Shown here: piece by piece, positions 26,491 to 36,012 of the stretch
How positions within the stretch are numbered: position 1 is the stretch's first letter
Layout of the letters: the number at the start of each line of letters is the position of its first letter
The notes under the pieces: model-generated
What the model was told of the DNA's origin: nothing
Database searches by the model: none
What the model saw: only the letters and a program-made list of their open reading frames with translations
Made by a program: the position numbers and the translations under genes
Assembly (NCBI GenBank): GCA_905221325.1
Contig: CAJNCS010000004.1
Location: 62,001 to 126,000 of the forward strand
DNA: 64,000 nt
DNA from: a bacterium
GTDB taxonomy: Bacteria; Bacillota; Bacilli; Lactobacillales; Streptococcaceae
Direction: 5' to 3'

Positions 26491-26506
26491 CTGAAAGTAC
26501 TTTCTG
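26491..26506 (+). promoter_or_regulatory. NanR operator candidate, sialidase promoter
   Basis: CTGAAAGTACTTTCTG, with GAAAGTACTTTC forming a perfect 12-base palindrome. It starts 94 bp upstream of the TATAAT -10 box at 26585. A second conserved block (aaaatagtttt...aatctattcta, 26522-26551) starts 31 bp further on. Confidence 0.7.
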
Positions 26507-26584
26507 TAAAATTAAAATATTAAAATAGTTTTAAAAGTAAAATCTATTCTATATCAATTTAGCTATAAAGTTCAAAGTTTATTG

Positions 26585-26590
26585 TATAAT
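26585..26590 (+). promoter_or_regulatory. -10 box of the sialidase promoter
   Basis: TATAAT. The -35 position (26562-26567, GCTATA) does not match the consensus, unlike the other two nan promoters, which suggests dependence on an activator. Confidence 0.6.
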
Positions 26591-26596
26591 GAGGAA

Positions 26597-26778
26597 AAGG
26601 TATTATGCGAAAGGAGGAAACTTTCCGCTGTTTGGTCAAAGAGTAAGAGCAGTGGACGTTTGAAGAATGGGAGGTCTCATTCAGTCGGTTACTTTCTTTT
26701 TACTTGTTTAGTTGGAGGAACTAAAAATTTTAAGAAAAAAAGAAAGCGCTTTATTTTATGAAAAACGAAAGGACAAAC
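26597..26778 (+). promoter_or_regulatory. Leader region of the sialidase mRNA
   Basis: About 180 bases without a confident gene. It holds a hairpin (GCGAAAG / CTTTCCGC, 26607-26628), a second possible stem (AATGGGA / TCTCATT near 26669-26684), a 13-codon ORF starting ATG at 26604, and a cre-like AAGAAAGCGCTTTA near 26740-26753 just before the start codon. Confidence 0.4.
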
Positions 26779-29700
26779 ATGAATTACAAATCTTTAGATC
26801 GGAAACAGCGATACGGAATTCGAAAATTTGCAGTTGGGGCGGCATCTGTAGTGATTGGTACAGTGGTATTTGGAGTTTCTCCAGTTTTAGCCCAAGAACA
26901 GGGAAATGTAGTAGCACCAAGTACTGAAAATGTGGAAAAAGGCAAAGAACAATCATCAGAAGAGGCACCTAAAGAAGCTCTAGTAGCAAATGCATCTGAT
27001 GCTGATAAGAATCTAGCTGGGACTGAACTTGACCAAGATAAGCTCAAGAAGCAGGTAGAAGAAAAGACAGACAATGCAACGGAAACAACTTTAAAAGAAG
27101 AGGAAGAATCAGCAGATGAGAATGCTATTCCTCGTGACTATTACTCAAGAGATTTAAAAAATGCTAATCCTGTCCTTGAAAAAGAAGATGTTGAAACCAA
27201 TGCAGCAAATGGTCAGAGAGTTGATTTATCAAGTGAACTAGATAAACTAAAGAAACTTCAAAATGCTACAGTTCACATGGAGTTCAAACCAGATGCATCA
27301 GCTCCACGCTTTTACAATCTCTTCTCTGTATCCAGTGACACCAAGGAAAATGAGTACTTTACTATGTCGGTCCTTGATAATACAGCTCTTATTGAAGGGC
27401 GTGGCGCTAACGGAGAGCAGTTCTATGATAAGTATACAGATGCTCCTTTGAAAGTTCGCCCAGGACAATGGAATTCCGTGACCTTTACTGTCGAACAACC
27501 GACAGCGGAGTTACCTCATGGTCGAGTTCGTCTCTATGTGAACGGTGTCTTATCTCGAACAAGTCTAAAATCTGGGAACTTCATCAAAGATATGCCAGAT
27601 GTTAATCAAGCTCAACTTGGAGTAACCAAACGGGGCAAGAAAACAGTTTGGTCCTCAAATCTACAAGTTCGAAACCTAACTGTTTATGATCGTGCTTTAA
27701 GCCCAGATGAAGTTCAAACACGGAGTCAATTATTTGAAAGAGGTGAATTGGAACAGAAACTTCCTGAGGGAGCAAAAGTGACTGAGAAAGAAGACGTCTT
27801 TGAAGGTGGTAGGAACAATCAACCAAATAAAGATGGTATCAAGAGTTATCGTATCCCAGCTCTTCTCAAGACTGATAAAGGAACGCTGATTGCTGGAACG
27901 GATGAAAGACGTTTGCACCATTCTGACTGGGGAGATATTGGGATGGTTGTTCGTCGTAGCTCAGATAATGGAAAAACATGGGGAGACCGAATCGTAATCT
28001 CAAATCCTCGTGACAATGAGCACGCTAAACATGCAGATTGGCCATCTCCAGTCAATATTGATATGGCCTTGGTACAAGACCCTGAAACAAAGAGAATTTT
28101 TGCAATTTATGACATGTTCCTTGAGAGTAAGGCAGTATTTTCATTGCCGGGGCAAGCTCCGAAAGCTTATGAACAAGTGGGAGATAAAGTTTATCAAGTT
28201 TTATATAAGCAAGGAGAATCAGGTCGCTATACGATTCGAGAAAACGGAGAGGTTTTCGACCCTCAAAACAGAAAGACAGATTATCGTGTTGTCGTTGACC
28301 CTAAAAAACCAGCCTACAGCGATAAGGGGGATTTGTATAAAGGGAATGAGCTAATCGGGAATATTTATTTTGAGTATAGCGAGAAGAATATTTTTAGAGT
28401 TTCCAATACCAACTACCTATGGATGTCCTACAGTGATGACGATGGGAAGACTTGGTCTGCACCAAAAGATATTACACATGGGATTCGGAAAGATTGGATG
28501 CACTTCCTAGGAACTGGACCTGGTACGGGGATTGCCTTGCGTACAGGACCTCATAAGGGAAGACTGGTGATTCCAGTTTATACAACAAACAACGTTTCCT
28601 ACCTAAGCGGTTCTCAATCATCTCGTGTAATTTATTCAGATGATCATGGTGAAACATGGCAAGCAGGTGAAGCAGTTAATGATAACCGTCCAGTAGGCAA
28701 CCAAACCATTCACTCTTCAACCATGAATAATCCAGGTGCCCAAAATACGGAGTCAACTGTTGTTCAGTTGAATAATGGGGATCTCAAGCTCTTTATGCGT
28801 GGGTTGACTGGTGATCTTCAGGTTGCGACCAGTCATGATGGGGGAGCAACGTGGGATAAGGAAATCAAACGTTATCCTCAAGTAAAAGACGTTTATGTTC
28901 AAATGTCCGCTATTCACACCATGCATGAAGGAAAGGAATACATTCTACTCAGCAATGCTGGTGGTCCTGGACGCAACAATGGTTTGGTTCACCTGGCTCG
29001 TGTTGAGGAGAATGGTGAGTTGACATGGCTGAAACACAATCCTATACAAAGTGGTAAGTTTGCTTACAACTCGCTCCAAGAACTCGGAAATGGCGAATAT
29101 GGTTTGCTTTATGAGCATGCGGATGGCAATCAAAACGATTATACTTTATCCTATAAAAAATTCAACTGGGATTTCTTGACCAAGGATTGGATTTCTCCTA
29201 AAGAAGCAAAAGTGAAATACGCGATTGAAAAATGGCCAGGCATCCTTGCTATGGAGTTTGATTCGGAAGTATTGGTCAACAAGGCACCAACCCTTCAATT
29301 GGCAAACGGCAAGACAGCACGCTTCATGACCCAGTATGACACAAAAACCCTCCTATTTACGGTGGATTCAGAGGATATGGGTCAAAAAGTTACAGGTCTG
29401 GCAGAAGGTGCTATTGAAAGTATGCATAATTTACCAGTCTCTGTGGCGGGCACCAAGCTTTCGAATGGAATGAACGGAAGTGAAGCTGCTGTTCATGAAG
29501 TGCCAGAATATACAGGCCCACTAGGGACAGCGGGTGAGGAACCAGCACCAACAGTTGAAAAACCAGAATTTACAGGCGGTGTGAATGGTGAAGAGGCCGC
29601 AGTTCATGAAGTCTCAGAGTACACAGGTCCATTAGGCACAGCGGGTGAGGAACCAGCACCAACAGTTGAAAAACCAGAATTTACAGGCGGAGTTAATGCT

Positions 29701-30189
29701 GTTGAGGCCGCAGTTCATGAAGTCCCAGAGTACACAGGCTCACTAGGGACATCCGGCGAAGAGCCAGCCCCAACAGTCGAGAAGCCAGAATACACAGGCG
29801 GAGTTAATGCTGTTGAGGCCGCAGTTCATGAAGTCCCAGAGTATACAGACCCATTAGGCACAGCGGGTGAAGAGGCAGCTCCGACAGTTGAAAAGCCAGA
29901 ATTTACAGGCGGGGTTAATGCTGTTGAGGCAGCTGTCCATGAACTTCCAGAGTACACAGGTGGCGTGAATGCAGCCGATGCAGCTGTACATGAAATTGCA
30001 GAATATAAGGGAGCTGATTCGCTTGTAACTCTTGCTGCAGAAGATTATACTTACAAAGCTCCTCTTGCTCAGCAGACACTTCCTGATACAGGGAACAAGG
30101 AGAGTGGCTTCCTAGCTTCACTAGGATTAACAGCTTTCTTCCTTGGTTTGTTTGCAATGGGGGAAAAAGAGAGAAAAGTAAGAGAATAA
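26779..30189 (+). CDS. nanA: Cell-wall anchored sialidase NanA
   Basis: A surface exo-sialidase that cleaves terminal sialic acids from host glycans. The 1136-residue protein has a YSIRK-type signal ([13 protein letters not shown] near residue 12, ending at VLAQ), a CBM40 lectin-like domain starting [10 protein letters not shown] (about 116), and the catalytic beta-propeller from SYRIPALLK (about 355). Four Asp-boxes ([32 protein letters not shown]) are visible. Four 37-residue repeats plus two short ones precede the sorting signal LPDTG near residue 1101. The ATG at 26779 has AAAGGA 5 bases upstream; an in-frame ATG at 26758 lacks this. The promoter carries the nan palindrome. Confidence 0.95.
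29482..29976 (+). repeat. Tandem 111-bp repeats in the 3' part of nanA
   Basis: Four full 37-codon units begin at 29482, 29593, 29704 and 29815 ([12 protein letters not shown]...[13 protein letters not shown]), followed by a shortened 17-codon unit and a further remnant. The middle units are nearly identical in DNA, so copy number could change by recombination. The repeats form the wall-spanning stalk between catalytic domain and LPxTG. Confidence 0.92.
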
Positions 30190-35900: not shown

Positions 35901-35912
35901 AATGGCTTGTTT

Positions 35913-35928
35913 CTGAAACTACTTTCAA
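35913..35928 (+). promoter_or_regulatory. NanR operator candidate, sialate lyase promoter
   Basis: CTGAAACTACTTTCAA, 15 of 16 identical to the site at 30294. It starts 94 bp upstream of the -10 box and 71 bp upstream of the -35 box. Confidence 0.75.
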
Positions 35929-35942
35929 TCGATACAGTTTCT

Positions 35943-35967
35943 AAAATACAAGTAGAAACTAAAATCT
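35943..35967 (+). promoter_or_regulatory. Second block of the nan module, lyase promoter
   Basis: AAAATACAAGTAGAAACTAA followed by AATCT. GAAACT at 35955 lies exactly 42 bp after the first palindrome start, the same as at the nanE promoter. Confidence 0.55.
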
Positions 35968-35983
35968 AAGTGTATACAAGATA

Positions 35984-36012
35984 TTGAAAGCGATTTTCAC
36001 AAGGTGTATACT
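35984..36012 (+). promoter_or_regulatory. Promoter of the lyase-kinase operon with cre-like site
   Basis: TTGAAA (35984-35989), a 17-base spacer and TATACT (36007-36012). The -35 box is again inside a cre-like sequence, TTGAAAGCGATTTTCA. Confidence 0.75.

Follow-up and report, generated by a model that had tools for sequence, protein, structure and literature searches.

The closest described relative of the system studied here is NanR of Streptococcus pneumoniae, a regulator of the RpiR type. Its palindromic site and its action as an activator were already published by Afzal 2015 (as cited in PMC4509764 and PMC12713135), and the 18-bp NanR box TCTGAAASTACTTTCARA from that work is quoted in PMC4509764. 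PMC3509027 likewise treats the regulator as an activator, with induction by N-acetylmannosamine (ManNAc), and NanR-dependent induction by sialic acid or ManNAc is reported there for the pneumococcus. According to a preprint of December 2025 (PMC12713135), the affinity of pneumococcal NanR for the 18-bp palindrome is about 0.5 uM whether N-acetylmannosamine 6-phosphate (ManNAc-6-P) is present or not, and the ligand stabilises a NanR tetramer. The same preprint reports flexible linkers in NanR and proposes a degenerate half palindrome about 23 bp downstream at two pneumococcal promoters, the lyase promoter being said to have none; how NanR activates without a change of affinity is a question that it leaves open. 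In this paper we analyse a stretch of 64,000 nucleotides from an oral streptococcus (family Streptococcaceae; assembly GCA_905221325.1, contig CAJNCS010000004.1, positions 62,001 to 126,000; hereafter the window), in which NanR palindromes precede the genes for a sialidase, for NanE and for N-acetylneuraminate lyase. Between each palindrome and its -10 box lies a second block that looks like another NanR operator, and we put it forward here as a new candidate. Our search of the open-access literature found no report of a whole second NanR operator; subscription papers lay mostly outside that search.

Paired sites at the nan promoters of the window

The distal palindromes, read directly from the forward strand, are CTGAAAGTACTTTCTG at 26491-26506 (sialidase promoter), CTGAAACTACTTTCAG at 30294-30309 (nanE promoter) and CTGAAACTACTTTCAA at 35913-35928 (lyase promoter). 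The core of the streptococcal NanR box is fully matched at all three, upstream of the promoter, and the start of the palindrome is followed after exactly 94 bp by the start of the -10 hexamer (TATAAT at 26585-26590, TATAAT at 30388-30393 and TATACT at 36007-36012, respectively). At the nanE and lyase promoters a -35 TTGAAA begins 71 bp after the palindrome start (30365-30370 and 35984-35989) and is contained in a sequence resembling a catabolite-responsive element, or cre (30365-30380 and 35984-35999, forward strand); the sialidase promoter has no -35 at the +71 position and no cre core above its -10. All of this agrees with an initial annotation of the region, which had placed the palindromes, the -10 boxes and the two cre-like sites at the same positions.

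The second block consists of a proximal, weak NanR-like site on the forward strand, AAAAGTAAAATC at 26533-26544 (sialidase), GAAACTGAAATC at 30336-30347 (nanE) and GAAACTAAAATC at 35955-35966 (lyase). Twelve of 16 ungapped columns (+38 to +53) are identical across the three promoters, which agree pairwise in 13-14 of the 16, and none of 20,000 dinucleotide-preserving shuffles reached 12 identical columns (maximum 10). Its letters suit a decayed version of the palindrome better than an independent motif: within this clade one half is good (GAAAsT) and the other poor (AATC where the palindrome has TTTC). The window suggested that the G/C letter covaries between the two half sites, and this candidate rule was rejected when relatives' nanE promoters did not uphold it (22 of 105 combine a G in the palindrome with a C in the block).

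The initial annotation had set the block 42 bp from the palindrome and taken this distance as four helical turns, which would put both sites on one face of the helix. The block does start 42 bp from the C of CTGAAA in all three promoters; this figure compares unlike points, however, and measured like for like (GAAA to GAAA or AAAA) the spacing is 40 bp (26493 to 26533, 30296 to 30336 and 35915 to 35955). At 10.5 bp per turn, 40 bp is about 3.8 turns and the 39-41 bp obtained in genus-wide fits is 3.7-3.9 turns, so that whole-turn phasing is not borne out. The remaining part of that proposal, a regulator acting as an activator from two upstream sites (given as near -106 and -64), is supported; if the first base of the -10 is assumed to be -12, the operator centres relative to the predicted start sites fall near -98.5 (distal) and -58.5 (proximal).

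Allowing up to 3 mismatches, the bare palindrome 14-mer occurs 35 times in the window against 33.7 expected, i.e., with no excess, and a promoter scan gave 29 promoter-like matches against 24.4 expected, about chance density. At 0-1 mismatch only the sialidase, nanE and lyase sites are left, together with the reverse reads of two of them; the nanE promoter is the best of the promoter scan (11 of 12) and the lyase promoter joint second (10 of 12). A weak palindrome match at 34528-34541 (3 mismatches) was dropped because it sits in a repeat-like stretch (34509-34620) before a yhcH-type gene. A 14-letter piece of this stretch, at 34598 on the minus strand, recurs in locus L005, where the esterase promoter is seemingly interrupted by such a repeat-like element.

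A fourth, related arrangement, missed by the initial annotation, precedes the esterase gene at 25469 (AXE1 match). It comprises a NanR palindrome-like site TTAAAACTACTTTCAG at 25336-25351, whose palindrome AAAACTACTTTC at 25338 has one mismatch in the 12-bp core, a second site AAATTCACTTTC at +40 (25378-25389) with its right half intact and its left half poor, and an extended -10 TGCTACAGT (25426-25434) with the hexamer at +91, all on the forward strand. Among relatives the palindrome stands before the esterase gene in 49 loci and is absent in 18 others with usable upstream sequence. The right half CTTTC recurs at the second site in 31 of 44 non-redundant esterase promoters, TGNTASAGT lies at +91 or +92 in 29 of the 44 and is absent in 15, and a search modelled on the full palindrome places the best second match at 40-41 in 26 of 39. 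A terminator-like hairpin (26455-26476, forward strand) separates the esterase and sialidase genes.

Conservation of the pair among streptococci

Genome-wide counts come from the genomes of relatives, and the named Streptococcus loci around nanE are the best 80 of 200 relatives. These sets are mostly of the mitis group and are not independent; clustering at 85% identity reduces them to 22 nanE, 8 lyase and 12 sialidase representatives. A larger set held 149 loci per class, from which we left out loci without usable upstream sequence (1 for nanE, 35 for lyase, 119 for sialidase and 82 for esterase) or without the palindrome (51 for lyase and 18 for esterase). The block pattern used on the larger set and in the genome-wide composite search was drawn from the data; the repeat tests used the palindrome alone.

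With the left half of the palindrome as the model, the best downstream GAAA lay at +40/41 in 70 of 71 nanE, 51 of 53 lyase and 32 of 33 sialidase promoters; two neighbouring offsets together account for about 2-4% in shuffles, a share computed at 40-41 of each pattern, which is displaced by one position from the pair that was counted. In the larger set the block is found at 40 (81 promoters) or 41 (24) in all 105 non-redundant nanE promoters, at 40/41 in 53 of 54 lyase promoters (one at 32) and at 40/41 in all 28 sialidase promoters (27 and 1).

The cre core was scored as 7 or 8 of the 9 fixed letters of TGNAANCGNTNNCA, which we take to be the cre motif, lying over the -35. It was found in 105/105 nanE and 51/54 lyase promoters, in none of 28 sialidase promoters (best 6 of 9) and, at 7, in 9 of 44 esterase promoters. 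Nor did any of the 28 sialidase promoters score above 3 of 6 for TTGACA at the right place. As judged by this motif, the nanE and lyase promoters are candidates for control by CcpA and the sialidase promoter is not.

For a wider sample we picked 60 more divergent genomes from 284, and 35 distant genomes likewise. An upstream region of nanE was obtained from 210 of 217 loci and reduced to 68 representatives, 49 of which have the palindrome at 9 or 10 of 10. The second site 39-41 bp from the first, found at the window promoters, is weaker in this diverse set: using the full palindrome as model, 27 of the 49 have their best second match at 39-41 bp (4.7% in shuffles). In a joint fit, which allowed only spacings of 39-42, used a threshold of 24 of 31 set by us and was run without a shuffle control, 43 of 64 representatives reached the threshold, with spacings of 40 (20), 39 (16) and 41 (7). 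A joint score of distal site, proximal site and -10 was at least 20 of 26 in 14 of the first 30 distant genomes and in 0 of 600 shuffles.

The strong and the weak site may exchange places. In seven of the 43 fitting representatives (L194-L197, L214, L216 and L224) it is the proximal site that scores higher, and in L209 and L215 both score 10/10, i.e., the second site is a full palindrome. A NanR-like gene was found in all eight genomes behind L194-L197, L209, L214, L215 and L224; the genome of L216 (G219) was not among the matches.

The pair also occurs away from the nan genes. A composite-pattern search of 22 whole genomes, picked by us from the 284, gave 41 matches in 21 of them, the reversed-pattern control giving 0; 38 matches were assigned by distance to nanE, not individually, and three are remote from the nanE operon or far upstream of it. 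Each of these three is followed by a sialidase-like gene, which matches the window sialidase at 68% over residues 1-1137 (L199, about 290-310 bp on), at 67% over 8-918 (L200, about 270 bp on, on a contig other than that of nanE) and at 67% over 102-901 (L201, about 880 bp on). Since the first hundred residues of the L201 gene are unmatched, its 5' end may be broken; the gene (1988-6175) stands behind an intact paired operator.

A model for activation by NanR and its alternatives

We think it probable that these are two-operator promoters activated by NanR, in which a tetramer stabilised by ManNAc-6-P bridges both operators and recruits polymerase. A NanR dimer would occupy the good palindrome (centre near -98.5) whether inducer is present or absent, and the second operator (centre near -58.5, 51-52 bp before the -10), being weak because of its poor half, would need help. 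Breakdown of sialic acid would yield ManNAc-6-P, which would lock two NanR dimers into a tetramer; this, anchored at the strong site, would also grip the weak site 39-41 bp away. A NanR DNA-binding domain would then be placed beside the C-terminal domain of the polymerase alpha subunit and could recruit polymerase in the style of a class I activator, and such activators usually sit where the proximal operator is. In glucose, CcpA would block the nanE and lyase promoters through the cre over the -35, and the sialidase promoter, without -35 and cre, would depend almost wholly on NanR. If one tetramer holds a strong and a weak operator, the inducer need not change the affinity for a single site, and the flexible linkers of NanR (PMC12713135) would let it tolerate a spacing of 3.7-3.9 turns.

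Several observations weigh against this model. The share of best second matches at 40-41 falls when the full palindrome is the model (nanE 39/71, lyase 36/53, sialidase 31/33), and at nanE the commonest single offset is then +28 (29/71). Natural spacing variants exist at 32 bp (a lyase promoter, L042) and at 34 bp (an esterase promoter, L068), the latter about half a turn off, and esterase promoters keep the right half of the second site, not the left. Among the diverse nanE promoters the best second match lies elsewhere in 22 of 49, and 21 of 64 representatives miss the joint fit even though a NanR-like gene is present in many of their genomes; in five of the 21 (L169, L175, L176, L178 and L184) the same short locus also gives a match to the esterase. 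The centre of the proximal site at nanE is TG, not TA, which should weaken that site on its own, and the TA-step mutation A10C abolished NanR binding in PMC12713135, where the lyase site was not induced by sialic acid. Binding of NanR at the proximal site is itself a prediction from the sequence.

The alternative that survives best, though we hold it unlikely, is that the alpha C-terminal domain of polymerase, not NanR, reads the second block as an A-rich UP element and that distal NanR acts alone, the fixed distance being that from block to -10. The block is indeed A-rich, its right side is conserved as WTCTAAAT and not as the TTTCA of the palindrome, and its distance to the -10 is 51 or 52 bp at every one of the 105 nanE and 54 lyase promoters and at 26 of 28 sialidase promoters (50 bp at the other two). 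An UP element, however, need not match the NanR half site GAAAsTA, as the block does, nor become the full palindrome of L209 and L215 or outscore the distal site in seven representatives, and the distance from block to distal palindrome is nearly fixed too. A second, different regulator that binds the block and cooperates with NanR would account for a right half conserved in a form of its own; the left half and the lineages with exchanged strengths match the NanR box, and we regard such a regulator as very improbable. Least credible of all is that the promoters are recent copies of one another whose spacing is kept by descent and not by function: 13 of 24 spacer positions are shared by the sialidase and nanE promoters of the window (shuffle p 0.04) and by the lyase and esterase promoters (p 0.005), and nanE and lyase share 22 of 30 positions of the cre/-10 stretch, but the spacers of the other four pairs out of six are unlike (p 0.4 or more), in contrast to the block, which is similar in every pairing of the sialidase, nanE and lyase promoters, and the information per column among diverse nanE promoters is 1.53 bits in the proximal GAAA but 0.27 bits in the spacer.

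Returning to the bridging tetramer, the occurrence of the arrangement in many other streptococci suggests that NanR as an activator works by gripping two sites at once. A broader and more tentative reading, which we place slightly short of probable, is that NanR promoters of streptococci work as switches with two operators, the strong one being distal in some and proximal in others, and that the inducer acts only through one tetramer holding both; oral commensals would have placed this switch on sialidase genes without -35 or cre, so that CcpA would block nanE and lyase directly but not the sialidase. If true, this would be a new mode of activation for RpiR regulators. Because the second operator is conserved and keeps nearly constant distances to the first operator and to the -10, bridging by the tetramer as an answer to the activation question is directly testable. 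The arrangement also leads us to predict that oral streptococci express sialidase free of direct repression by glucose, and it offers natural promoters with both sites strong, or with the strengths swapped, as controls.

Genes of the window and comparison with known regulators

The sialidase gene (26758-30189, forward strand) encodes a cell-wall type enzyme with a YSIRK signal (PF02973, PF13088); near its C-terminus are four stretches of SIALI-17 repeats, a family to which zinc metalloprotease D has a weak match as well. It is followed by nanE (30428-31126, forward strand), assigned by family matches to N-acetylmannosamine-6-phosphate epimerase, and by the lyase gene (36072-36989, forward strand; PF00701), whose best NCBIfam match is N-acetylneuraminate lyase, below the model cut-off. 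The gene nanR (37907-38758, minus strand) encodes an RpiR-type regulator (PF01418, PF01380; solved homologues 8v4v, 8tx9 and 8txl). Its product aligns over its full length with the solved NanR of pneumococcal type and keeps the nine residues named at the DNA interface in PMC12713135, which supports the annotated choice of NanR as the regulator; none of 38 genomes has the solved NanR at 100% identity (best 98-99%). A long terminator-like hairpin (37884-37914, 14 pairs, minus strand) lies between the convergent nanK and nanR. Elsewhere in the window (18905-20969) are two adjacent 343-residue 3-deoxy-D-arabino-heptulosonate 7-phosphate (DAHP) synthase genes of the same NCBIfam subfamily.

Compared with S. 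pneumoniae as described in PMC12713135, the regulator type, the palindrome, the action as an activator, the cre over the operon -35 and the weak downstream half site, proposed there to be held by the tetramer, are all alike. In that description, however, two promoters carry the second site, in half-palindrome form, and the lyase promoter does not; here it precedes the lyase and sialidase genes too, some species have it as a whole palindrome, and a separate promoter lacking both -35 and cre serves the sialidase. The sequence GAAACTAAAATC lies at +40/41 of the palindrome in L003 (S. pneumoniae by its deposited name) and in other mitis-group lyase promoters, which is at odds with the statement made for D39 that the lyase promoter lacks a second site and calls it into question, at least outside D39.

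Escherichia coli MurR and Vibrio vulnificus NanR, also RpiR regulators, resemble the present system in placing tetramers or dimers at two neighbouring sites, but they are repressors whose DNA affinity falls with the effector, and the MurR sites overlap the polymerase site (PMC12713135). In Clostridium perfringens, NanR has a similar core GAAAAATATTTTC at sialic-acid genes; relief of repression is suggested there, and the available part of PMC4509764 does not mention paired sites. The Lactococcus regulators GlaR and ClaR are RpiR-type activators of sugar genes bound at the promoter region (PMC6528599), at odds with the statement in PMC12713135 that all other reported RpiR regulators repress; they differ from the NanR promoters described here in that a paired-site architecture is not seen in the available part of PMC6528599.

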